The position numbers and the translations under genes were made by a program. From NCBI RefSeq assembly GCF_003030345.1, contig NZ_CP028158.1, positions 1,116,001 through 1,180,000 on the forward strand: 64,000 nucleotides of DNA. The letters run 5' to 3'. The number at the start of each line of letters is the position of its first letter. The stretch's first letter is position 1. This DNA comes from Plantactinospora sp. BC1. Lineage in GTDB: Bacteria > Actinomycetota > Actinomycetes > Mycobacteriales > Micromonosporaceae. This document shows positions 8,633 to 37,218 of this stretch, piece after piece. The notes below the pieces were generated by a model. That model was given only the letters and a program-made list of their open reading frames with translations, did not search any database and was not told the origin of the DNA.

Positions 8633-9265
8633 TCAGTCCGGTGCCGCCGGCCGCCGGTAGACACCGTGCCACCAGATCAGCGCGAGTTCGCGGGCGAACG
8701 CGTCGTCGCCGCTGCTGTCCCCGCCGGAGCTGGCGATGTGGTCGATGATGGCGCTCTCGCCGCCCACCACGACGACCCGGGTGGCGGCGTCCACGTCGAG
8801 GTCGGCCGGGGCACGCCCCGCCCGTTGGTCCTCGGCGAGGAGCCGGACGGTGTTGTCGGAGAACCGCGCCACGCCGGTACGCCAGAACCGGCGTACCGCC
8901 GGGTCGTAGGCGGCGACCTCGTTGACGGCGTTGATCACGGCGGCGTACCGGCGGTGTATCCCGAGTAGTTGTCGGAAGGCGTCGACCAGGGCCTCGACGC
9001 CGCTCTCCGGTCGCCAGGCGCTCGCGATGTCGAAGTTGGCGGTCTGCATCGTCCCGGCCAGTCGCATGAGCAGTTCCGACTTGTCCCGGAAGTGGGTGTA
9101 GAAGGTCGAGCGGGCCACCCCGGCCGCCTCGGCGATCCGCTGTACCCCGAGCTCGGTGAAGCTCGTCCCCTCCGCCAACAGCCGCTCGGTCGCGGCGAGG
9201 ACCTGGGCCTCGACCGTGGCGCGCCGGTCGGGGTCGGGCGCGCGGCGCCGGGTGATCGATGGCAT
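8633..9265 (-). CDS. TetR-family transcriptional regulator
   Basis: The 210-residue product has a classical N-terminal TetR helix-turn-helix: QRIAEAAGVARSTFYTHFRDKSELL lies at about residues 38-62. The all-helical C-terminal part would bind a ligand that I cannot predict. The ATG at 9265 starts MPSITRRRAPD and is preferred over upstream in-frame starts, which would run through the operator region. The gene is divergent from the aldo/keto reductase, and a palindrome lies between them, so control of itself and of the reductase is likely. It converges on the carbamoyltransferase with 30 bases between stops. Confidence 0.9.
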   Translation of the reverse strand: MPSITRRRAPDPDRRATVEAQVLAATERLLAEGTSFTELGVQRIAEAAGVARSTFYTHFRDKSELLMRLAGTMQTANFDIASAWRPESGVEALVDAFRQLLGIHRRYAAVINAVNEVAAYDPAVRRFWRTGVARFSDNTVRLLAEDQRAGRAPADLDVDAATRVVVVGGESAIIDHIASSGGDSSGDDAFARELALIWWHGVYRRPAAPD

Positions 9266-9387
9266 GTGGGAAATCTTAGGTCGGCCCGCCGAGGCGGCGG
9301 CGAGGCGGCGGCGGGTCGCCGAGGAGCTGGTCAGGACCGGTGTACGGCGTCGGCGGAGCGACCTGGGAGGGCGCGCTAGCATTGCCT

Positions 9388-9414
9388 CGGACACTGTGTC
9401 CGACGCAGTGTCCG
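9388..9414. promoter_or_regulatory. candidate TetR operator with three half-sites
   Basis: Positions 9388-9402 read CGGACAC-T-GTGTCCG, a perfect 7+7 palindrome around one base. A further half-site, GCAGTGTCCG, follows at 9405-9414, so the outer half-sites also form an inverted repeat. It lies between the divergent TetR gene (start 9265) and the aldo/keto reductase gene (start 9483), the normal place for a TetR operator. The binding partner is inferred from position only. Confidence 0.6.
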
Positions 9415-9482
9415 GGACGGCTTCGGTGACCGGGCAGGAGTGGCCCGGCGCCGCGATCGAGCACGACACAAAGGGGCAGACA

Positions 9483-10514
9483 GTGAAATACCGCCTACTA
9501 GGGCGTACCGGAGTATGGGTCTCGGAGATCTCGCTGGGCGCGATGACCTTCAGCGGGGAGAACCACCCGATCTACCGCCAGCTGGGCGCCCTGGGCCGGG
9601 AGGACGTCGACCGGATCGTCGGCACCGCCCTCGACGCCGGGATCAACTTCATCGATACGGCCGACGTCTACAGCGACGGCGAGTCCGAGGAGCTGCTCGG
9701 CCAGGTACTCGGGCAGCGGCGCCGGGACGTCGTACTCGCCACCAAGGTGCACGCGCCGATGGGGACCGGCCCCAACGACAACGGCCAGTCCCGGCTGCAC
9801 GTCATGCGGGCACTGGAGGACAGCCTGCGCCGGCTGCGGACCGACCACATCGACCTGTACCAGATCCACAACTTCGACCACCTGACCCCGTTCGAGGAGA
9901 CGCTGCGTGCCCTCGACGACGCCGTACGCCAGGGCAAGGTCCGCTACGTCGGCTGTGCCAACCTGGCCGCCTGGCAGGTCAGCCGGGCGCTCGGCATCTC
10001 CGCCCGGCACGACTGGGCCGGGTTCGTCTCCGTCCAGGCGCACTACTCGCTGGTCGGCCGGGACGCCGAACGGGACCTGCTGCCGATGGCCGAGGCGGAG
10101 GGCGTCGGGCTGACGGTCTGGAGCCCGCTGGCCGGCGGCTTCCTCGCCGGCAAGACCGACCGGACCGGAACGGTCGCCGAGGACGGCTCCCGGCAGGCGC
10201 ATCCGGAGTACTCCCAGTTCCCGCTGATCGACCCGGCACGCGGGCACGAGGTGCTCGACGTACTCCGGACGGTCGCCGCCCGGCACCAGGTCAGCCCGGC
10301 CCGGGTCGCGCTCGCCTGGCTGCTGGCCCGCCCGGCGGTCACCAGCGTCATCGTCGGCGCCCGCCGGCTCGACCAGCTGACCGACAACATCGCCGCGACC
10401 GAGCTGGCCCTCAGCCCGCAGGACCTCGCCGACCTCGACGAGGTGAGCAGCCTGCCGCCGGCCTATCCGAACTGGATCCAGCAGGCCTTCGCCGGCGCCC
10501 GCACGCCCCGGTAG
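9483..10514 (+). CDS. aldo/keto reductase
   Basis: This 343-residue protein is a full-length NAD(P)H-dependent aldo/keto reductase of the TIM-barrel type (YajO/Tas-like). Catalytic residues can be seen: Asp and Tyr in INFIDTADVYSDGESE, Lys in VVLATKVH and His in LYQIHNFD. C-terminal cofactor-binding motifs TSVIVGARRLDQLTDN are present. The GTG start at 9483 follows AAAGGGG and begins VKYRLLGRTG, the family's usual N-terminus. Control by the divergent TetR protein is likely. The substrate cannot be told from sequence; such enzymes reduce aldehydes and ketones in detoxification or secondary metabolism. Confidence 0.92.
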   Translation: MKYRLLGRTGVWVSEISLGAMTFSGENHPIYRQLGALGREDVDRIVGTALDAGINFIDTADVYSDGESEELLGQVLGQRRRDVVLATKVHAPMGTGPNDNGQSRLHVMRALEDSLRRLRTDHIDLYQIHNFDHLTPFEETLRALDDAVRQGKVRYVGCANLAAWQVSRALGISARHDWAGFVSVQAHYSLVGRDAERDLLPMAEAEGVGLTVWSPLAGGFLAGKTDRTGTVAEDGSRQAHPEYSQFPLIDPARGHEVLDVLRTVAARHQVSPARVALAWLLARPAVTSVIVGARRLDQLTDNIAATELALSPQDLADLDEVSSLPPAYPNWIQQAFAGARTPR

Positions 10515-25584: not shown

Positions 25585-26589
25585 TCAGTTGGCGCGGATC
25601 GCCCGGATCGACTGGCGCAGCGACGACATCGTGGCGAGCACGGCCGTCGGCTCGTACCCGCAGTGCGCCATGCAGTTGGCGCAGCGGGCGTCCCGCCCCC
25701 GGCCGTACGCCGACCAGTCGGTGGTCTCGATCAGCTCCCGGTACGTCTGCGCGTAGCCGTCGCCGAGCAGATAGCAGGGGCGCTGCCAGCCGAAGAGCGA
25801 GTACGACGGGATGGCCCAGGCGGTGCAGGAGAAGTCGACCTTGCCCTCCAGGAAGTCCAGGAAGAGCGGCGAGTGGTTCAGCCGCCACTTCTTCCGGCGC
25901 CCCTCGCCGAACGCCTTCTTGAACATCGCCCGGGTCTCCGCGACACCGAGGAAGTGCTCCTGGTCCGGCGCCTTGTCGTAGGCGTACGCCGGGGAGAGCA
26001 TCATCTGGTCGACGCCCAGGTCGTCGTTGAGGTAGTCGAGTACCTCGATCACCGTCTGCGGGGTGTCGGTCGAGAAGAACGTCGTGTTGCTGGTGACCCG
26101 GAAGCCGCGCCGCTTCGCCTCCCGCACCGCCTCGACCGCCTCGTCGAAGACGCCCTCCTTGCAGACCGAGGCGTCGTGCCGCTCCCGCAGCCCGTCGATG
26201 TGCACGGCGAAGGAGAAGTAGCGGGACGGGGTGAACTTGTGCAGCTTCTTGCGCAGCAGCGCCGCGTTGGTGCAGAGGAAGACGTACTTGCGGCGCTTGA
26301 CGAGTTCGTTCACCAGCCGGTCGATCTCCGGGTGCATCAACGGCTCGCCGCCGGCGATGGAGACCATCGGCGCCCCGCACTCCTCGATCGCGGCGAGCGC
26401 CTGCTCCACCGGCATCCGGCGCTTCAGCACGTCCGCCGGGTGCTGGATCTTGCCGCAGCCGGCGCAGGCCAGGTTGCAGGCGAAGAGCGGCTCCAACTCG
26501 ACGAGCAGCGGAAAGTGCGTCCTCCGACGCAGCTTCTGCTCCATCAGATAGCGGCCGACCCGCAGGCTCTGGCGCAGTGGCATGCCCAT
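25585..26589 (-). CDS. hpnH: HpnH, radical SAM adenosylhopane synthase
   Basis: HpnH uses an S-adenosylmethionine-derived 5'-deoxyadenosyl radical to add adenosine to diploptene, the first step of C35 side-chain formation in hopanoids. The 334-residue protein starts MGMPLRQSLRVGRYLMEQKL, the family N-terminus, and has the iron-sulfur motif CNLACAGC (near residues 38-45) and the SAM-binding GGEP (SIAGGEPLMHPE). Additional C-terminal cysteines (CANCMAHCG) match the family. It is the last gene of the leftward hopanoid operon, 76 bases after the hpnG-ispH fusion. Confidence 0.95.
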   Translation of the reverse strand: MGMPLRQSLRVGRYLMEQKLRRRTHFPLLVELEPLFACNLACAGCGKIQHPADVLKRRMPVEQALAAIEECGAPMVSIAGGEPLMHPEIDRLVNELVKRRKYVFLCTNAALLRKKLHKFTPSRYFSFAVHIDGLRERHDASVCKEGVFDEAVEAVREAKRRGFRVTSNTTFFSTDTPQTVIEVLDYLNDDLGVDQMMLSPAYAYDKAPDQEHFLGVAETRAMFKKAFGEGRRKKWRLNHSPLFLDFLEGKVDFSCTAWAIPSYSLFGWQRPCYLLGDGYAQTYRELIETTDWSAYGRGRDARCANCMAHCGYEPTAVLATMSSLRQSIRAIRAN

Positions 26590-26665: not shown

Positions 26666-28159
26666 TCATGGCGTTCGGATCTCCTTGGGAAGGGTGAAGT
26701 GCACATCCTCGGTACGGGTGCTGTGCTCCCGTACCGCGTCGGCGCCGAGCCCGGCCAGCGCCGCCACGGTCTGGTCGACCAGCCACGGCGGAGCCGACGC
26801 ACCGGCGGTCACGCCGATCGTCCGGGCCCCGGCGAGCCAGCGGAGGTCGACCTGCTCCACGTCGTCGACCAGGTACGCCGGGGTGCCCCCGCGCTCGGTC
26901 ACCTCGACCAGGCGCCGGGAGTTCGAAGAGTTGGCCGAGCCGAGCACCAGCACCACGTCGGCGACGGCGGCCACCTCGCGCAACGCCGCCTGCCGGTTGG
27001 TGGTGGCGTAGCAGATGTCGTCCGAGGAGGGTCCGGTCAGCGCGGGGAACCGCCGCCGGAGTACGTCGAGGACCCCGGCCACCTCGTCCACGGCCAGGGT
27101 GGTCTGCACCAGGTACGACACCCGGTCCGGGTCGGCGACCTCGATCCGTTCCGCGTCGCCGACCGACTCCACCAGGGCGATCCGGCCGGGCACCTCGCCG
27201 AGGGTCCCCTCGGTCTCCTCGTGCCCGGCGTGCCCGATCAGCAGCACCGTGTTGCCCCGCCCGGCGAACCGGCGGGCCTCGCTGTGCACCTTGGTCACCA
27301 GCGGACAGGTCGCGTCGATCACCGGCAGTCCCCGGTCGGCGGCGGCGGCCCGGACCGCGGGCGCCACCCCGTGCGCGGAGAAGACCGTCGTCGCGCCGTC
27401 CGGGATCTCGGTCAGCTCGTCGACGAAGACCGCGCCCCGGCGTTGCAGGTCGGCGATGACGTGCAGGTTGTGCACGATCTGCTTGCGGACGTAGACCGGC
27501 GGGCCGTGCCGGTCCAGCGCCTGCTCCACCACGCTGATCGCCCGCTCCACCCCGGCGCAGAACGACCGGGGGGCGGCCAGTACCACCTGCCGGGCGGTGG
27601 TCGCCGCCGCCCACTCCGACAGGGCCGGGCCGAGCCGCGGCAGCACCCGCAGCGCCGCGATCACCCGGCCGAGCGTCGCCGGCCGGTACAGCGGATGCGG
27701 TGGCACGTCGGCGACCACCCGTACGCAGGCGACCGGGCGGCCGGCGGCACCGGCCAGCAGCGCCGCCGACTCGGTGTCCACCGCGATCGCGCCGGTGGCG
27801 GCCAGCCGGGTCCGGTCCGCGCCGTCGACGATCCGCCGGCTGGTCACCACCGGTCCGAGGTGGACGGTCAGGCCACGTCGGCGCAGCGCCGCCGCGATCA
27901 TCGGGGCGGCCGGGCAGGGCACCGGGGCACCGCCGACGACGCCGGCCCGGCGTACCTCGGTGGCCACCACCACGTCGCCGGTGCGCAACGTCGGCACCAG
28001 GCCACCGGCGATGCCGGCCACCGCCAGCGCGGCGGCGTCGCTGCGGCCGGCGGCGACCGTCGCCCGGGCCGGTCCCCGACCGGTACGCCGCAGCGGTGCG
28101 CCCGGCGGCAGGCCGCGCCGCAGCGCGATCGCCTCCGCCCGCATCGGTGCGAACAGCAC
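26666..28159 (-). CDS. fusion of HpnG-like nucleoside phosphorylase and IspH (HMBPP reductase)
   Basis: This 497-residue protein joins two enzymes. Residues about 1-180 resemble adenosylhopane nucleoside phosphorylase HpnG ([39 protein letters not shown]), which removes adenine from adenosylhopane. Residues about 185-497 form a complete IspH, the iron-sulfur enzyme making IPP and DMAPP in the MEP pathway: cluster cysteines in [19 protein letters not shown] and [10 protein letters not shown], catalytic His in SAHGVAP and [11 protein letters not shown], and the SSNS motif ([10 protein letters not shown]). No stop or frameshift lies between the parts. GTG 28159 gives the family N-terminus; a TTG overlapping the shc stop (28177) is an alternative. 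It lies between shc and hpnH, so both activities fit the operon. Confidence 0.9.
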
Positions 28160-28173
28160 CCAGTTTCCGTTCC

Positions 28174-30177
28174 TCAACTGGGCTCTCCCGGATCGGTGCG
28201 CAGCCGCGCGAAGTCGTCCGGGTCGCGCAGCAACCGGCCGAGCGCGCTGACCGGAAAGACCAGCCGGTAGAGGTGGTAGTTGATGTAGAAGTCGCCGGGA
28301 AACCCGGTGCCGGTGTACTGCGGCTCGTCCCAGCCCCCGTCCGGCCGCTGGGTACGCACCAGCCAGTCCACCCCGCGCCGGACCGACGCCGAGTCGTCCG
28401 AGCGGGCGGCGTGCAGGGCCAGCAGCGCCCACCCGGTCTGCGAGGCGGTCGAGTCGCCCTGACCCCGCCAGGCCGGATCGCGGTACGAGCGCATGTCCTC
28501 GCCCCAGCCGCCGTCGGCGTTCTGCCGCCGGTGCAGCCAGCAGACCGCCCGGACGATCCTCGGGTCCTCCCGGGGTACCCCGGCGGCGATCAGCGCCGGC
28601 ACCACCGCACCCGTCCCGTAGACGTGGTTGGCGCCCCACCGGCCGAACCAGGAACCGTCCGCCTCCTGGTGGCGCAGCAGCCACGCCACGCCCCGGCGAA
28701 CCGGTATCGAACCGGCCAGCCCCTCCGCGCAGAGCGCCTCCACCACGTGCGCGGTGACGTCCGCGCTCGGCGGGTCGATCACCTCACCGAAGTCGCAGAA
28801 CGGCAGGTCGCGGGCGATCGCCCGGGTGTTGTCCGCGTCGAACGCCGCCCAGCCGCCGTCGGCGGACTGCATCCCGCAGAGCCAGCGGACCCCGCGCTCC
28901 ATCGCCGGCCGCAGCGCCGGATGCGCCCCGCAGCGCCGCAGCGCGAGCAGCACCTCGGCGGTGTCGTCGGTGTCCGGGTAGCCGTCGTTGTCGAACTCGA
29001 ACGCCCAGCCGCCGGGCTCCACCCGGGGCCGGCGTATCGCCCAGTCGCCGGGGACCCGGATCTCCTCGGCGAGCAGCCAGTCGGCGGCGGTGGTCAGCGC
29101 CGGATGGTCGGCCGGCACCCCGGCGTCGGCGAGCGCGACCATCGCCAGCGCGGTGTCCCAGACCGGGGACTGGCACGCCTCCAGCCGGCGTACCGGTCCG
29201 TCCGGGGTCTCCTCCCGGACGGTGAACCGCTCCAGCCCGGCCAGCCCGCTGCGCAGCACCGGGTGGGAGAGCGGATAGCCGACCAGGTGCAGCGCGATCA
29301 GCGAGTAGACCCACGGCGGCTGGATGCCGCCCCACGAGCCGTCGGCCTCCTGCCGGGCCACGATCCACTCGGCCGCCCGGCGCAGCGCGTTGCGGCGTAC
29401 CGGGCCGACCGGGTGCCGCTCGTAGCCGCGCAGCGCCGTGTCGAGCCGGTGCATCCAGCGTCCCTTGCCGCGCCGCTCCTCCGGCGGCGCCGGCCGTCCG
29501 GTACGCAGTTCGCCGAGCGAGAACCCGAGCGGGCGTACCGGGCGCAGCGCGCGGACGATCGACAGCGGCACGATGGTCTGCCGGGCCCAGCAGGCGAAGT
29601 CGTAGACGTTGAGCGGAAACCACGACGGCAGCAGCACCACCTCGGACGGGATCGCCGGCAACCGGTGCCACGGCCACTCGCCGAAGAGCGCCAGCCAGAG
29701 TCGGGTGAAGACCCGGCTCCGCTCGATGCCGCCCTGCGCGAGTACGAAGTCCCGGGCCCGGCACATGTGCTCGGCGTCCGGCGGGTCACCGGCCAGCCGC
29801 AGCGCCGCGTACGCCTCGATGGTGGTGGAGAGGTCGCCCGGCCCGCCGTAGAAGGTCGCCCAGGCGCCCTCCGCATGCTGCTTCGAGCGGATCCACCGGG
29901 CGGTCGGCTCGGTCTCCACCTCGGTACGGATGCCGAGGAACTCCCGCAGCAGCAGGTCCTCGGCCTCCATCGTCACGTTGGTCTCCAGCTCACCCTGCCA
30001 CCAGCCGCCCGGCTGCTGCCGCGCGAGCAGCAGGTCCCGGGCCCGGTCCAGGGCCGCCTCGGCGGTGCTCCGCTGCCCCTCGCCTCCGATGCCGAGCGGA
30101 CCGGGTCCCTCGATCAGGATGCCGTCGCGGCGGGCGCCGGTCGGGTTGCCGTCGCTGGTGGAGAGCGTCGCGCCCAT
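28174..30177 (-). CDS. shc: squalene-hopene cyclase
   Basis: The 667-residue enzyme cyclises squalene to hopene and hopanol at the membrane surface. The catalytic DxDD motif is present as DTDD in [13 protein letters not shown] (near residue 402). QW motifs recur, for example [38 protein letters not shown] and [21 protein letters not shown] near the end. Length and ending ([17 protein letters not shown]) are those of the family. ATG 30177 overlaps the stop of the upstream polyprenyl synthase gene, showing coupling. Confidence 0.96.
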
Positions 30178-31208
30178 CAGTGGTCCCGTCCCGTCATGAA
30201 GTGCGCGATCGCCACCAGGTCGGCGTGCACGTCGGAGCGTTCTCCGGTCGAACCCGGCTCGCCCAACTGGTCCAGTTCGGCCAGCGCCTCGGTGAGCAGC
30301 CGGTCGGCCTGCTTCTCGGTCCAGTCCCGGGCGCCGGTCTCCTCGATCAGCTCGGCGGCCAGGCCCAGGTCGGTGGCGGAGAGTTCGCCGGTCCGGGCGT
30401 ACAGCTCGGCGAGCTGGTCACCGGCCGGGCCGCCGGAGGTGAGGGCCCGGACCACCGGTACGGACTTCTTCCGGGCCCGCAGGTCGGAAAGGACCGGCTT
30501 GCCGGTGACCGCCGGCTCACCCCAGATCCCGAGCAGGTCGTCCACGAGCTGGAAGGCCAGGCCGAGCCGTTCCCCGTACCGGGCCAGCCCGTCCACCAGC
30601 GCCGTCGGGGCGCCGCAGAGCACCGCGCCGAGCGTCGCGGAGCAGGAGAGCAGCGCCGCCGTCTTGTCCCGGGCCATCGCCAGGCACTCGTCGAGGGTGA
30701 CGTCGGGACGGGACTCGAAGGCCACGTCGGCCGCCTGCCCGGCGATCAGTCGCCGGATCGCGGTGTGCATGGTGCTCAGTCCGGCGCGTACGTCCAGGGT
30801 GGGGTCGTCCGCCAGCACCTCGTCGGCGAGGCCGAGCATGGCGTCCCCGGCCAGGATCGCCGGACCGATGCCGAACGCCGCCCACGCCGTCGGCCGGTGC
30901 CGGCGCTCCAGGTCACCGTCGATCACGTCGTCGTGCAGCAGGGAGAAGTTGTGCACCAGCTCCACCGCGACCGCCGCCGGCAGGCCCCGGCGTACCGGCT
31001 GGCCGGCGGCCTGGGCGGAGAGCAGCGCCAGCGCCGGGCGCAGCCCCTTCCCGCCCCGGCCGGCGGGCTCCCCCGCGGCGTCCCAGTAGCCGAGCTGGTA
31101 GCCGGCGACCAGCCGGGTACGCTCGTCGATCCGTTCCAGCGTCGCCCGGATCTCGGGCTGGACGAGTTCGTCCACCTGGGCGAGGACGCTGGGCAGCATC
31201 ACGGTCAT
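30177..31208 (-). CDS. polyprenyl (farnesyl) diphosphate synthase
   Basis: The 343-residue protein is a trans-prenyltransferase supplying the C15 precursor for squalene. The first Asp-rich motif is LLHDDVIDGD (near residue 96) and the second is QLVDDLLGIW (near 240), where the last Asp of DDxxD is Gly. KGLRPALALL and the RR after the first motif bind diphosphate. ATG 31208 follows GAGGAG and overlaps the hpnE stop (ATGA). The chain length is inferred as C15 from its place in the operon, not from sequence. Confidence 0.92.
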   Translation of the reverse strand: MTVMLPSVLAQVDELVQPEIRATLERIDERTRLVAGYQLGYWDAAGEPAGRGGKGLRPALALLSAQAAGQPVRRGLPAAVAVELVHNFSLLHDDVIDGDLERRHRPTAWAAFGIGPAILAGDAMLGLADEVLADDPTLDVRAGLSTMHTAIRRLIAGQAADVAFESRPDVTLDECLAMARDKTAALLSCSATLGAVLCGAPTALVDGLARYGERLGLAFQLVDDLLGIWGEPAVTGKPVLSDLRARKKSVPVVRALTSGGPAGDQLAELYARTGELSATDLGLAAELIEETGARDWTEKQADRLLTEALAELDQLGEPGSTGERSDVHADLVAIAHFMTGRDH

Positions 31209-32581
31209 CTCGTCTCCTCGTCGCGCCCGGTCATGCCGGTGCCTGCCGTCTGGGTCGGTGCGGACCCGAGGTGGGCGAGGACCACGTCGGCGGCGCGGTG
31301 GCCGCTGCGTACCGCGCCCTCCATCGTGTCCGGCCACCCGGTGTCGGTCCACGCGCCGGCCAGGGCCAGCCCGGGCGCCCGGGTCTGGGCGGGTGGCCGG
31401 GCACTGCGGGAGCCCGGCCCCTGCCGGAACGTCGCCCGGGGTTCCCGGGTCACGAACGCGTCCCGGACCCGGGCCTGCCGGGCCGCCGGGAAGAGTTCGG
31501 CCAGCGCGTCCAGGTAGGTCCGGACCAGGTCGCTGGCCCGGACGCCCAGCACCTGCTCGGCGGCGGAAATCGAGACCACCAGGTACTGGCCGGAGCCGCC
31601 GGGCGCGGTCCGGTCGAAGACCCACTGCACCGGCGTGTCCAGCCCGGCCGCGAACTCGAGTTCGGTGACCCGCTGCTGGTAGTGCACGTGCACGTTGACG
31701 ATCGGCGCGGCACCCAGCCGGGCCCAGCGCGCCCGGTCCGGGGCGGCCTCGGCCGGCACCAGCCGGGCGGCCTGCGGGTGCGGCACCGCCAACACCACCG
31801 CGTCGGCGGTCAGCTCGACGCCGTCACCGGAGATCTGGAACCGGCCCCGGTCGGCCCGGATCCGCTGCACCCGTACCCCGGTGCGGACCGTCGCGCCGCG
31901 CTGCCGGAGGAGTACGGACGCCGGGGCACCGTGCAGTTCGGACAGTGGCGCGGTCGGCCGGCCGATGTCGGCGGCGTCGGCCCGGTCGAGCAGCCCGGTC
32001 CGGAAGACCCGGGCGGCCAGCGCCAGCGAGGCCCGTTCCGGCGGGGCGTTCAGGGCCGCCGTGCAGATCAGCTCCCAGAGCCGGGCCACGGTCGGCGCGT
32101 CCTGCCCGTGCGCGGTCAGCCAGGCGCCGAAGCTGACCCGGTCGGCGGCCGGGTCGTCCGGTTCGACCCGGCGCAGCGCGGCGGCGGCCCGTACCGCCGC
32201 CAGCCGCTGTCCCACCCGCAGCGGGCGGTAGCCCAGCAGGGCCGGCAGCAGGTGCGCCGGGGCCGGCAGTCGGCGGTTGCGGGCGAGTACGTGCGGCGGC
32301 CCGCCGGCCCGCAGGATCGGCACCGCGAACCCGTCCTGCACGGCCGCCCGGTCGGCGCTGCCGAGCCGGACGAGCAGGTCGCGGTACTGCTGGTAGCAGC
32401 GGAGGAAGACGTGCTGCCCGGTGTCCACGGTCAGCTCGCCCCGCCGGAACGAGTAGGTGGCCCCGCCGAGCGCCGGACGGGCCTCCACCAGGGTCACCCG
32501 GTGCCCGGCGTCGAGCAGCCGCACCGCCGAGGCGATGCCGGCCAGCCCTCCGCCGACCACGCAGACCCCTCCGTCGGTCAC
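31205..32581 (-). CDS. hpnE: HpnE, hydroxysqualene dehydroxylase (FAD-dependent)
   Basis: HpnE removes the hydroxyl of hydroxysqualene to give squalene. The 458-residue flavoprotein begins with the FAD-binding motif VCVVGGGLAGIASAVRLLDAG followed by LVEARPALGGATYSF, and ends with a second FAD motif around LALAGAWTDTGWPDTMEGAVRSG. GTG 32581 overlaps the stop of hpnD (GTGA). In its place between hpnD and the polyprenyl synthase gene it completes the HpnCDE route to squalene. Confidence 0.93.
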   Translation of the reverse strand: MTDGGVCVVGGGLAGIASAVRLLDAGHRVTLVEARPALGGATYSFRRGELTVDTGQHVFLRCYQQYRDLLVRLGSADRAAVQDGFAVPILRAGGPPHVLARNRRLPAPAHLLPALLGYRPLRVGQRLAAVRAAAALRRVEPDDPAADRVSFGAWLTAHGQDAPTVARLWELICTAALNAPPERASLALAARVFRTGLLDRADAADIGRPTAPLSELHGAPASVLLRQRGATVRTGVRVQRIRADRGRFQISGDGVELTADAVVLAVPHPQAARLVPAEAAPDRARWARLGAAPIVNVHVHYQQRVTELEFAAGLDTPVQWVFDRTAPGGSGQYLVVSISAAEQVLGVRASDLVRTYLDALAELFPAARQARVRDAFVTREPRATFRQGPGSRSARPPAQTRAPGLALAGAWTDTGWPDTMEGAVRSGHRAADVVLAHLGSAPTQTAGTGMTGRDEETR

Positions 32582-33456
32582 GGTGCGCTCCGGGTCATCG
32601 CCCGCGCCGCGACGTACGCCTTCTCCCAGCCGGGCAGCGAGACCCGCTGCCGGGTCACCGCCAGCGGGTCGGCCACCATCCGGGCCAGCAGCCGGTGGTA
32701 GATCCCGGCCATCGCCGCCACGCAGGCCGCGCTGCGCCGGTCCAGCAGCGGCAGCAGCCGCAGCCCGCTCTGGTAATAGCGTTCGGCCCGGTGCGCCTGC
32801 CAGCGGAGCAGCGCGGCGAGCCGGTCCGGCGGGTCGGTCAGCGCGCCGTCCGGGCCGAGTTCCAGGGTGCAGCCGAACCGCTCCAGGTCGCGGCGGGGCA
32901 GGTAGACCCGGCCGGCGGCCCGGTCCTCCACGATGTCCCGCAGGATGTTGGTCAGTTGCAGCGCGATGCCCAGGGTGTCGGCGAGTTCGGCGGCCGCCGA
33001 CCGGTCCACCGAGGGGCGGAGCGCGAAGACGCCGAGCGAGAGCCGGCCGATCGACCCGGCGACGCAGCGGCAGTAGCCGACCAGCTCCTCGAAGGTCTCG
33101 TAGCGGGCGCCCCGGACGTCCGCCACGCAGCCGTCGACCAGCTCGTCGAAGGCGGCCAGCGGGATCGGCAGCCGGGCCGCCGCATCGGCCAGGGCGACCA
33201 GCACCGGATCCCCGCCGGCCTCCGGCAGCCGGTGCAGCGCCGCCCGGATCTGGTCGAGCCGGGCCAGCTTGGTCGCGGCGGGCAGCTCCCCGTCGCCGAT
33301 GTCGTCGATGCGCCGGGCGACGGCGTACACGGCGCAGAGCGCGGCGCGCCGGTCGGGACGGAGCAGCCGGATCCCGTACGAGAAGTTGCGCGCCTGGCTG
33401 CGGGTCACCCGGGCACACTCCCGGTAGGCGCGTTCCAGTCCGGCGTCGGCGGTCAT
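32578..33456 (-). CDS. hpnD: HpnD, presqualene diphosphate synthase
   Basis: HpnD condenses two farnesyl diphosphates to presqualene diphosphate. The 292-residue protein has the two Asp-rich motifs of squalene/phytoene synthases: RRIDDIGDGE (near 50) and NILRDIVEDRAAGRVYLP (near 172). The N-terminal RSQARNFSYGIRLL is also typical. The ATG overlaps the hpnC stop (ATGA), and its stop overlaps the hpnE start. Confidence 0.94.
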   Translation of the reverse strand: MTADAGLERAYRECARVTRSQARNFSYGIRLLRPDRRAALCAVYAVARRIDDIGDGELPAATKLARLDQIRAALHRLPEAGGDPVLVALADAAARLPIPLAAFDELVDGCVADVRGARYETFEELVGYCRCVAGSIGRLSLGVFALRPSVDRSAAAELADTLGIALQLTNILRDIVEDRAAGRVYLPRRDLERFGCTLELGPDGALTDPPDRLAALLRWQAHRAERYYQSGLRLLPLLDRRSAACVAAMAGIYHRLLARMVADPLAVTRQRVSLPGWEKAYVAARAMTRSAP

Positions 33457-34382
33457 CCGCGCACCCCGCTCGGGCGCAGGGCGGCCCGGGGCGGCCGGTA
33501 CGACCTGAGCCAGGCGGCGGCGATCCCGGCCCGGGTGGGCTTGGGCGGCCCGGGCAGCGGGTCGTGGTCGGCCCGGGCCAGTGCGGCGAGCGCGGCCCGC
33601 CCACCGGCGACGTATCCGCCGACGGCCAGCCGGGCCCAGCCGTGCAGGTCGGCGACGAGCGGCGCACCGGCGTCGAGCAGGTCGGCGGCGCGCTGTGCCT
33701 GGCGCCGGACGACGGTACGGAGCCGGTCACCGGCGCGGGGCGCGTCGAGGTCCTCCTCGGACACCCCGGCCGCCGCCAACTCCTCGGTCGGCAGGTAGAT
33801 CCGGCCCCGGCGCCGGTCCTCGGCGACGTCCTGGAGATGCTCGACCACCTGTAGGGCGGTGCAGATCCGGTCGGAGAGCCGGATCCGGTCCGGCGAGGCG
33901 GCCCCGAAGACGTGCAGCACCAGCTCGCCGACCGGGTCGGCGGAGAGGTGGCAGTAGTCGACCAGGGCGCCGAAGGTCGGATAGCGGCGCACCGCCTGGT
34001 CGCGCCGGTTCGCCTCGATCAGCCGCAGCAGCGGGTCGATCGGCAGCCGGCAGTCGACCACGGTGGGTGCCAGCCGGACCAGTACCGGGTGCCGGGGCAG
34101 CCGGCCGTGGTAGAGGGCGCGTACCTCGCGGTCGAACCGGTCCAGCCCGGCGAGCCGGGTCGCCGGTGTCTCGTCCCGGCCGCGCTCGTCGGGCTCGTCG
34201 CCGAGGTCGTCGACGTACCGGGCGTACCAGTAGAGGGCGAGCAGGTGCCGGCGGATCCGTGCCGGCAGGACGCGCAGCGCGACGGGGAAGTTCTCCCCGG
34301 CCAGTACGGTGTCCGGCTGCCGGCGCCCACCCGGCCGATCCGCGGGCGGATGGTCGGGAGCGTCGTCGGTCAGATGAAGCAC
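33453..34382 (-). CDS. hpnC: HpnC, hydroxysqualene synthase
   Basis: HpnC converts presqualene diphosphate to hydroxysqualene. The 309-residue protein begins with a disordered stretch, then ENFPVALRVLPARIRRHLLALYWYARYVDDLGDE (first Asp-rich motif near 58) and VVEHLQDVAEDRRRGRIYLP (second motif near 195). GTG 34382 follows AGAGG and is the first gene of the leftward hopanoid operon. The gene overlaps hpnD by four bases. Confidence 0.93.
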   Translation of the reverse strand: MLHLTDDAPDHPPADRPGGRRQPDTVLAGENFPVALRVLPARIRRHLLALYWYARYVDDLGDEPDERGRDETPATRLAGLDRFDREVRALYHGRLPRHPVLVRLAPTVVDCRLPIDPLLRLIEANRRDQAVRRYPTFGALVDYCHLSADPVGELVLHVFGAASPDRIRLSDRICTALQVVEHLQDVAEDRRRGRIYLPTEELAAAGVSEEDLDAPRAGDRLRTVVRRQAQRAADLLDAGAPLVADLHGWARLAVGGYVAGGRAALAALARADHDPLPGPPKPTRAGIAAAWLRSYRPPRAALRPSGVRG

Positions 34383-34611: not shown

Positions 34612-35454
34612 TCAGCTTGACCGGGTACGCCGAGCCATCCAGATGCCGACCGTCATCGCCGCCACCGCGACCAGCCCGGCCAGCAGCCGAGGCCCCTCCA
34701 GCGACAGTCGCTCCTCGAAGGCGAAGACCCCGATCAGCACGCCGGTGAACGGGTCGAGCAGCGCGATCGCGGTCAGCGGGGCGGCGATCGGGCCGCCCTG
34801 GAAGGCGTTCTGGTTCAGCACCAGCGCGGTGCCGCCGACCAGGATCAGGGCGTAGAGGTGCCAGTCCGTGAAGACCTCGACCGGGTGGTCCGGCAGCTTC
34901 TCGATCACGCTCTTCACCAGGGCGGCGGCCAACCCGTACAGCAGTCCGGTGGCGATGCCGAGCATCAGGCCCCGGGTCGCGTCCTGGGTCCGCCAGGCCA
35001 CCAGCAGGCAGAGGGCGACCAGTGCGCCGATCGCGACCCCGACCAGGATCCAGGACCACGCCTTCGGCTCCTGCACCCCGCCGCGCGGGTTGGCGGCGAG
35101 CAGGAACCCGGTCAGCCCGACGACCCCGAGCACCACCACCAGCATGTCCCGGCGGTGCGGTCGGCGCCGCTCTATCGCCGCCTCCAGCGGAATCGCCATG
35201 AAGAGTCCGCTGACCAGCAGTGGTTCGACCAGGGCGAGTGCGCCGAAGCGCAGCGCCAGCGCCTGGAGGACGGTACCGAACGCGTCCGGGACCCAGCCCA
35301 GCAGCCAGAGCCGCCGGTGCAGCAGCCGGATCAGCAGCCTCGGGTCGATGGTCCGGGTCGGCCGCTCCTGTTTGGCGGCGTGCTGTTCCAGCACCGAACT
35401 CACCGCGAAGCAGGCGGCCGAGGCGAGTCCGAGCAGGATGGCGATGCCGTTCAC
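34612..35454 (-). CDS. DMT/NIPA-like membrane transporter
   Basis: The 280-residue protein has about nine to ten hydrophobic segments, beginning GIAILLGLASAACFAVSSVLEQHAA and ending LLAGLVAVAAMTVGIWMA. The pattern and the segment FGALALVEPLLVSGLFMAIPLEA match the DMT (drug/metabolite) superfamily, in particular the NIPA/DUF803 branch seen in actinobacteria. The cargo is unknown. GTG 35454 follows GAGG. It lies upstream of the hopanoid operon on the same strand and downstream of a glycosyltransferase gene. Confidence 0.8.
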   Translation of the reverse strand: MNGIAILLGLASAACFAVSSVLEQHAAKQERPTRTIDPRLLIRLLHRRLWLLGWVPDAFGTVLQALALRFGALALVEPLLVSGLFMAIPLEAAIERRRPHRRDMLVVVLGVVGLTGFLLAANPRGGVQEPKAWSWILVGVAIGALVALCLLVAWRTQDATRGLMLGIATGLLYGLAAALVKSVIEKLPDHPVEVFTDWHLYALILVGGTALVLNQNAFQGGPIAAPLTAIALLDPFTGVLIGVFAFEERLSLEGPRLLAGLVAVAAMTVGIWMARRTRSS

Positions 35455-35520
35455 CGGGTCGTACCTCGGGCTCCGGCCCGCCCCGCCACCGGTGGGGCGG
35501 CACGATCTGTGGCCCGCACG

Positions 35521-37008
35521 TCAGCCTTGCCGGTCCGGGTGGTTCGCCGGGCGCGTACCGTCGGGCCGGGGCTGGTCCGCGCCGATCCGCAACCTCGCCA
35601 CGCCGGCCCGCAGCCCGACCCAGCGGGTCAGCGTCCGGCGGGACGGCACCGCCGCCACCGCGGCCGGGACCTCGGCCGGCACCTCCGGACCGGCCGGCGC
35701 CGCGCCGTCGACCAGGGCGGGAGCGTCGAGCGACGGCGAACCGTCGACCAGGGCGGGAGTGCCGAGCGGCTCGTCGGCCCGTGCGGGTGCGATGGTCGGG
35801 GCGTCGAACGAGGACGCCCGTCCCGCCCCCTCGGTCGCCGGCTCGGGCAGCGCACCGCCCCGGGCGATGTCGGCGACCACCATCGCGGGATCGGTCTCGA
35901 AGAGGGCCAGCCCGGCGGCCCGCTGCCGCTCGCCGGCCGTACCGTCGGCGAGCCGGACCAGGGTCGGGCCCAGTTCGGCGACCCGGCGTACCCAGGTCGC
36001 CACCCCGGCCCGGGCCATGGTGGCCGCGTTCGCCCGGCCGTGTCCGGGGATCGGCCGGTAGGTCGCGACCGGCAGGCCGCAGGCCATCGCCTCCAGCGCG
36101 GTGAGTCCACCGGCGTTCTCCACCAGCACGTCGGCGGCGCGCAGCAGCTCCGGCATGTCGTCGACCCAGCCGAAGACGTATCCGGTGCGGCGCCGCTCCA
36201 GCCGGCGCAGCAGCGTCTCGTTCCGGCCGCAGACCACCACCGGGACCGCCACCCCGGTACGCGCGATCTCGGCCGCCGTCCGGGCCACCGCGCCGACGCC
36301 CCAGGAGCCGGCGACCAGCAGCGCGAGCCGGGCGTCGACGGGCAGCCCGAGTCGCTCCCGGGCGCGGCGCTTCTCGGCCGGCGAGCCCGGGCGGAAACCG
36401 GCCGAGACCAGTCGGCCGGCCACCCGGACCTCGCCGGCACCGAGCGCCCGGGCCTCGGCCCGGGTGGTGCGGTGCGCGGCGCAGTGCACGTCGATGCCGG
36501 GCGAGACCCAGATCGGGTTCACCGCGAAGTCGGTCAGATAGGTGACCACCGGTACGGCGAGCCGCCCGTCCCGGCGCAGCGGCCCGACGATCTGGCTGAC
36601 CACCGGGTACGTCGACACCACCGCCCGGGTGTCCGGGGGCAGCATCCGGAGTACCCGGGGCCACACCGGCCGGAGCAGCGCCCGGGTGATCGGCGCGGCC
36701 CGGCTGAAGTTCCCGCCGATCGCGAAGAGCAGCCCGTAGATCCACGGCAGCCGGCTCAGCATGCCGTGGTAGGTGCCGCGCAGCAGCCGGCCCAGTCCCC
36801 ACGGGAAGATGTCGGCCAGGTCCACGCAGTCGGCGAGCAGACCGCGTTCGCGCAGCCGGCCGGCGAGTTCCCGGCTCGCGCCGTCGTGTCCGGCCCCCGC
36901 GCTGGCGTAGATGATCATTACGCGCGGACGCCGCTCACCGACGCCGCTGGCGGGCGGCTCGGACGCCTCCTTGCGGTTCGCCTCGGACCGCCCGGATCTG
37001 AACGTCAT
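35521..37008 (-). CDS. MGDG-synthase/MurG-like glycosyltransferase (GT28)
   Basis: The 495-residue protein has the N-terminal MGDG-synthase domain (VMIIYASAGAGHDGASRELAGRL near 30; VVSTYPVVSQI) and a C-terminal nucleotide-sugar-binding domain (LVAGSWGVGAVARTA; VFGWVDDMPELLRAADVLVENAGGLTALEAMACGLP). Such enzymes glycosylate lipids on the membrane. The last 130 residues are a low-complexity Ala/Pro/Asp extension with repeated APALVDG-type units. The start is uncertain: ATG 37008 has no strong ribosome site, and ATG 36918 would begin just before the first strand. Its position beside the hopanoid operon makes a lipid acceptor plausible. Confidence 0.83.
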   Translation of the reverse strand: MTFRSGRSEANRKEASEPPASGVGERRPRVMIIYASAGAGHDGASRELAGRLRERGLLADCVDLADIFPWGLGRLLRGTYHGMLSRLPWIYGLLFAIGGNFSRAAPITRALLRPVWPRVLRMLPPDTRAVVSTYPVVSQIVGPLRRDGRLAVPVVTYLTDFAVNPIWVSPGIDVHCAAHRTTRAEARALGAGEVRVAGRLVSAGFRPGSPAEKRRARERLGLPVDARLALLVAGSWGVGAVARTAAEIARTGVAVPVVVCGRNETLLRRLERRRTGYVFGWVDDMPELLRAADVLVENAGGLTALEAMACGLPVATYRPIPGHGRANAATMARAGVATWVRRVAELGPTLVRLADGTAGERQRAAGLALFETDPAMVVADIARGGALPEPATEGAGRASSFDAPTIAPARADEPLGTPALVDGSPSLDAPALVDGAAPAGPEVPAEVPAAVAAVPSRRTLTRWVGLRAGVARLRIGADQPRPDGTRPANHPDRQG

Positions 37009-37218
37009 CCGGCCATCTACCCGCAGGAGGTGCGAAGAATCCTCGGAAGGCCGGACCGGCTTCCGTCGGGCGGCAGCGGAACCTTTCCGGCACCGCATCT
37101 GCCCGAACCCCCCGACCCGGACCTGCGGCCGGACGTAGACTCCGGATACCCCGCGACGCTCCGGTCGAAGCGCGAATCGGCGCCACCGGTCGCAGCCCCG
37201 GCCCACCGGGAGGTCGCC

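Follow-up and report, generated by a model that had tools for sequence, protein, structure and literature searches.

Within the 64,000 nt stretch of Plantactinospora sp. BC1 DNA that we analysed (the window), a single reading frame in a hopanoid cluster encodes an HpnG-like nucleoside phosphorylase fused to IspH, and our analysis confirmed this fusion. The best explanation, to which we assign a probability of about 0.7, is that two independent hopanoid-cluster enzymes are carried in one polypeptide, the C-terminal half probably being a hopanoid-dedicated HMBPP reductase that adds capacity to the MEP pathway. According to this model, the N-terminal half (HpnG) would act on the adenosylhopane made by the neighbouring HpnH and release its adenine, while the C-terminal half would be a working HMBPP reductase from a specialised clade to which the housekeeping IspH does not belong. 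Six C5 units are needed per hopanoid, and because of this consumption we propose that the fused IspH would give the MEP pathway more capacity at its last step, an oxygen-sensitive [4Fe-4S] reaction, when the hopanoid operon is on. The cluster already has its own prenyl synthase, and IspH would add the last MEP step to it. The fusion would also tie the dose of IspH to that of HpnG via one start codon, with no channelling between the active sites.

The fused gene occupies positions 26666–28159 of the minus strand and comprises 497 codons plus the stop (26666–26668). The first plausible start codon is a GTG at 28159; an alternative in-frame TTG at 28177 overlaps the stop of the squalene-hopene cyclase (SHC) gene. 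Residues 1–186 (27602–28159, minus strand) form the HpnG-like nucleoside phosphorylase domain (PNP_UDP_1, MTAN fold), closed by a long helix (residues 161–186), and residues 190–497 (26669–27592, minus strand) form the IspH (LytB, HMBPP reductase) domain. Pfam placed PNP_UDP_1 at residues 35–153 (40.6 bits, cut-off 25.1) and LYTB at residues 192–468 (295 bits, cut-off 24.5) of this one 497-residue protein, as the sequence-only reading had claimed when it saw a phosphorylase and an IspH in one frame. Among 54 aligned fusions, LYTB was recovered in all 54 and PNP_UDP_1 in 53. An AlphaFold model computed from the alignment of these 54 fusions had a mean pLDDT of 92.1 and a pTM of 0.88, and in it the inter-domain link is very short, with the first IspH strand starting at residue 191, directly after the helix.

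A frame error, which the sequence-only reading had itself named as grounds for abandoning the fusion, and likewise an assembly join were ruled out by the open junctions in 33 genomes of the window's family and at 80 named loci. Full-length fusions were present in 33 of the 200 genomes surveyed in the family, a row being counted if its alignment began no later than query residue 21 and reached at least residue 479; one genome (G147) was left out of the count, its locus (L047) having IspH next to a prenyl synthase but lacking an HpnG match. All 32 family junctions that were printed, of the 33, lacked a stop between the halves. Outside the family, a survey of 396 genomes of the phylum yielded four more fusion genomes (G257, G380, G465 and G495), belonging to two other families. 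We also retrieved the best 80 of 435 named relatives, which were picked by similarity to the fused N-terminus and the junction and so show existence and spread rather than frequency; none of the 80 had a stop between the HpnG and IspH matches. The genera among these best 80 were Plantactinospora, Micromonospora, Dactylosporangium, Frankia, Parafrankia, Amycolatopsis, Pseudonocardia, Prauserella, Nonomuraea, Microtetraspora, Microbispora, Actinomadura, Nocardia, Rhodococcus, Skermania, Kribbella, Nocardioides and Actinopolymorpha, and the fusion thus recurs in one frame across many species. Four of the 80 (L214, L245, L253 and L267) have a stop within the aligned IspH stretch after 311–316 residues, at its end, and in one (L239) the IspH half is broken after 246 residues.

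The genes around the fusion lie on the minus strand in the order hpnC-D-E-PPS-SHC-[HpnG::IspH]-HpnH. Upstream of the fusion are the squalene synthase HpnC (33453–34382; TIGR03464, 289.7 bits), the presqualene diphosphate synthase HpnD (32578–33456; TIGR03465, 282.8 bits), the hydroxysqualene dehydroxylase HpnE (31205–32581; TIGR03467, 417.3 bits), the polyprenyl diphosphate synthase (30177–31208) and, directly adjacent with a gap of 14 nt, SHC (HpnF, 28174–30177; TIGR01507, 767.5 bits). Directly downstream is the radical SAM adenosylhopane synthase HpnH (25585–26589; TIGR03470, 528.3 bits). All five TIGR matches are above cut-off. The best model for the polyprenyl synthase was NF041169 (410 bits, below the cut-off of 450), the match being to an encapsulin-cargo prenyl transferase model. 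The minus-strand stretch 34612–37206, immediately upstream of hpnC, encodes a DMT-type transporter and a glycosyltransferase that resembles diglucosyl diacylglycerol synthase and scores below the cut-off of that model.

This context was conserved in other genomes. The fusion is flanked by SHC and HpnH in 31 of the 32 family loci examined, and among the best 80 of 435 named relatives HpnH was found at 79 loci and SHC at 75, three of the five loci without SHC starting at a contig end. In the family survey 40 genomes were HpnH-positive and 32 of them carry the fusion, so that only one of the 33 family fusions, in Micromonospora pattaloongensis (G008), occurs in a genome without HpnH. In the phylum survey 33 genomes were HpnH-positive, five with the fusion (own genome included) and 28 without. 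The orphan fusion of M. pattaloongensis (positions 8766–10256 of locus L166, also sampled as L026 and L198) has no hopanoid matches nearby, and one conserved residue is replaced in each half (Asp151 of HpnG, Asn413 of IspH). Its IspH dN/dS was 0.46, as compared with 0.21 in a comparably distant intact pair, which points to weaker constraint. Because of the co-occurrence with HpnH and this weakened orphan, the fusion can be said to track the hopanoid cluster and to decay in its absence.

The N-terminal half scored 67.3 bits against TIGR03468, the NCBI HpnG model, which is below the cut-off of 187.1. The stand-alone HpnGs of three clusters from one other family (L167, L168 and L173, which we label Streptomyces-type by inference) occupy the same place between SHC and HpnH, have no IspH attached and reach only 76–77 bits. 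Together with those of L156, L154 and L161, six stand-alone HpnGs fell below the cut-off, at 43.7–77.1 bits; missing the cut-off therefore says little here, since stand-alone HpnGs of hopanoid clusters fail it as well. Within its own genome the N-terminal half is the best TIGR03468 match (69.6 bits vs 37.4 for the next), and HpnH is adjacent. Residues 1–186 align to MTA/SAH nucleosidases of the MTAN fold (VIA-align Z 23.0, rmsd 2.2 over 185 residues). Across the window's protein and the best 80 named fusions (81 rows), E130 is kept in 81, D151 in 80 and E9 in 79, the exceptions being the orphan at D151 (His in L198) and two rows cut by contig ends at E9. We take these residues, from their position and from known motifs, to correspond to E12, E174 and D197 of MTAN (for E9, E130 and D151, respectively) and presumably to have the same catalytic roles. 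The HpnG half gave dN/dS values of 0.11–0.46 in 13 close intact pairs. By fold, operon position and best match in the genome, the domain bears out the earlier description as HpnG-like; we use that term without claiming HpnG membership, and cleavage of adenosylhopane is predicted, in line with the role of HpnG as stated in the accessible text of PMC9228677 and PMC12583986.

The IspH half scored above cut-off with PF02401 (295 bits, cut-off 24.5), TIGR00216 (295 bits, cut-off 187.85) and NF002190 (396.7 bits, cut-off 389), and below cut-off with narrower IspH equivalog models (e.g. NF002189, 435.9 of 444 bits); the bifunctional IspH/S1 model gave 202 of the 624 bits of its cut-off. Residues 190–496 of the structure model superimposed on E. 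coli IspH (3f7t) with a VIA-align Z of 40.1, an rmsd of 1.6 over 307 residues and 52% identity. In the same 81 rows, C201, C285, C383, H230, H263, H313, E315, T353 and S411 are kept in all, and N413 and S455 in 80 each, the exceptions being the orphan L198, with Asp at 413, and L239, in which the break precedes position 455. Counted from the alignments, the E. coli equivalents of these eleven residues are, in the same order, C12, C96, C197, H41, H74, H124, E126, T167, S225, N227 and S269, which we take from earlier IspH work to be the cluster cysteines and the HMBPP-binding His/Glu/Thr/Ser/Asn set. A loose motif check had flagged L198, L234, L237, L239, L241 and L270, and a column-by-column check cleared all except L198 and L239. 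The IspH half was thus found complete, as first read, with its LYTB match and its cluster and substrate residues conserved. Its dN/dS was 0.06–0.23 in 13 closer intact pairs, and from these ratios it is under purifying selection. Taken together, both halves look functional by sequence, and we infer the two enzyme activities.

The sequence-only reading had raised the question of a second ispH, and an ordinary one is present in the same genome (C1:8052200), 53% identical to the fused IspH. All 33 family fusion genomes have at least two matches to the fused protein, and the second was confirmed as IspH in all 20 that were fetched (L001 and 19 of L174–L193). Another IspH was also found in all four out-of-family fusion genomes (in two pieces in G380) and in 49 of the 50 named fusion genomes examined (50 of the best 80). 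The exception is a draft of Microbispora triticiradicis (G624, L241); its congeners G619 and G632 have two, and we read the missing copy as an assembly gap. A fusion that is the sole IspH of its genome, which would prove activity, was not found among the fusion genomes examined. The second IspH and the operon context fit the earlier suggestion of a hopanoid-dedicated copy, whose activity is predicted, and an extra IspH within a gene of the hopanoid cluster suggests a supply step reserved for hopanoids. Because the genome has one ispG and one dxs above the family cut-offs, duplication of IspH alone would be useful only if IspH limits flux. Annotation may confuse the fused protein with the housekeeping IspH.

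To place the fused IspH among its relatives we used a tree of 93 rows, obtained from a first tree of 134 rows by dropping 41 near-duplicates and long or decaying rows (the second copy of L034, L026, L170 and L049). A single clade (support 100/96) unites all 45 fused IspHs with 16 others, namely 14 unfused IspHs, the IspH of G580 and L060, and leaves out the family's housekeeping IspHs. Within it, the three out-of-family fusions are the first to branch, and the unfused IspHs are nested. The fused label requires three changes on this tree, for which bootstrap had not settled, and this is consistent with a single fusion and two HpnG losses; in the AU test the fused rows as one clade were not rejected (p 0.114). 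One old fusion with later HpnG losses appears to be the simplest reading, an exclusive fused clade being also compatible with the AU result. Seven positions, Ser199-Phe200 next to the first cluster cysteine among them, distinguish the fused rows from 32 outside rows, and the unfused clade members mostly share them. The effect of the S199 and F200 substitutions counts as a caveat on a dedicated HMBPP reductase.

Thirteen of the 14 unfused clade IspHs lie beside polyprenyl synthase genes. Those of L033–L044 and L047, from the same family, share the clade with the fusion but differ in having no HpnG, SHC or HpnH match in the fetched neighbourhoods of 10–14 kb. In G580, a stand-alone IspH (L164:7733–8671) sits directly between SHC and HpnH, in the place of the fusion, and the HpnG-like gene is on another contig (L274). 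A specialised IspH clade common to the fusions and to unfused copies beside prenyl-synthase genes is thereby identified. As side observations, the clade IspH of L042 (6663–10157, minus strand) adjoins a polyprenyl synthase gene and one for a family 2B encapsulin shell, and L034 (10830–11708, minus strand; genome G046) carries a very divergent extra IspH (36% identical, on a very long branch) near another IspH.

Eight HpnH-positive genomes of the family lack a full fusion, and the cluster loci of seven (all but G086) were fetched. In G025, G057 and G091, HpnG is followed by an in-frame IspH remnant without the stretches bearing the three cluster cysteines, the loci concerned being L155:5184–5966, L159:5896–6720 and L163:6700–7518. 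In G036 (L156:8610–9284, minus strand), HpnG retains only an IspH-like C-terminal tail, and the cluster is otherwise close to that of the window, with an HpnH 89% identical. Four clusters have therefore lost the IspH core in frame and retained HpnG and the rest of the cluster. The stand-alone HpnGs of G012, G050 and G070 end in a short tail resembling the C-terminus of the fusion, which as traces of IspH is suggestive only. Since HpnG stays while the IspH core goes, the IspH half is accessory, and since the lineages that lost the core keep the cluster, and the HpnH-positive genomes of the phylum sample mostly lack the fusion, the extra IspH is not needed everywhere. The question of whether IspH limits hopanoid supply becomes directly testable, the clusters with an excised core being natural mutants.

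These losses and the conserved residues also bear on other explanations of the fusion. The second IspH might be a spare or differently tuned whole-cell copy (in oxygen tolerance, electron donor or timing), its place in the operon reflecting timing and not hopanoid flux. IspH and HpnH both carry Fe–S clusters, related IspH copies lie beside prenyl-synthase genes elsewhere, and the S199/F200 substitutions would suit such tuning; we nevertheless regard this as unlikely given the tight linkage to the hopanoid cluster and the decay where the cluster is gone. Tolerated loss of IspH in several clusters would agree with a catalytically dead passenger or structural tail, a reading that conserved active-site residues and low dN/dS in the intact fusions make highly improbable.

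It is very unlikely, and slightly less so than a dead tail, that the IspH half has lost its importance for HMBPP and serves as a new reductase or electron-transfer partner in hopanoid side-chain formation, e.g. with the product of HpnG as its substrate. The residues that bind HMBPP and the cluster are retained, the model superimposes on E. coli IspH with 1.6 Å over 307 residues, and the same clade includes IspHs in neighbourhoods without SHC, HpnG or HpnH matches, all of which speak against a side-chain role; its appeal lies in the clade-specific residues adjoining a cluster cysteine, in the other IspH of nearly all named hosts examined (49/50) and in the fusion to the enzyme that acts just before ribosylhopane is converted to bacteriohopanetetrol, a step for which no enzyme is established according to the accessible text of PMC12583986. 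Were it true, the IspH half would be a candidate for that step and the final hopanoid should differ in clusters with a deleted IspH core. The channelling of flux suggested in the sequence-only reading, in which intermediates would pass between physically coupled HpnG and IspH, could appeal to the one polypeptide and its very short link (helix 161–186, IspH strand at 191), but is not supported because the two reactions are many steps apart: in the established pathway IspH makes IPP/DMAPP and HpnG works on adenosylhopane many enzymes later. With IspH also deleted in frame from several clusters that retain HpnG, we consider channelling the least probable of these readings. Two independent enzymes, with an IspH dedicated to hopanoids, remains the preferred explanation.

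The architecture, with which the sequence-only reading was unfamiliar, has been in print since 2015: in its accessible text, Rao et al. (2015; PMC4746011) list a 'UDP-IspH' (UDP/PNP phosphorylase-IspH) for Frankia sp. QA3, EUN1f and EAN1pec, describe it as limited to a single species or its strains, consider such cases possibly random and note a role in phosphorus metabolism for each partner. Nowhere does that text contain the stem 'hopan'. The Frankia protein combines the same two families, and Parafrankia sp. EUN1f is among our fused loci (L209), but what was listed there is here a widespread hopanoid-operon protein with an HpnG-like N-terminal half. What had been an oddity of three Frankia strains thereby turns out to be widespread among actinomycetes and to have a clear context, and as a Rosetta-stone IspH fusion in the sense of Rao et al. 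it counts as recurrent rather than random. The IspH-RPS1 and IspH-UbiA proteins given in the accessible text of PMC4746011 likewise hold IspH in one frame with another protein, their partners being ribosomal protein S1 or a UbiA-like prenyltransferase in contrast to the hopanoid-route phosphorylase here. In the open-access literature we found neither a description of an HpnG–IspH fusion nor a link of the Frankia fusion to hopanoids. The architecture is thus known, and its hopanoid-operon identity, spread and repeated trimming appear undescribed in the searchable open-access literature.

In the putatively Streptomyces-type cluster of L167 (9684–14191), hpnH is followed by ispG and dxs and then by an aminotransferase-like gene. 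This is a different answer to what seems to be the need served by the fused ispH and suggests that hopanoid clusters recruit MEP-pathway genes. A search of the open-access literature for Salinispora diterpene clusters with ispH gave no lead. In the accessible text of PMC5462960, an acidobacterial shc-hpnH cluster is given ispH in the discussion and ispA in the results, for what is seemingly the same cluster, and one of the two may be a slip.
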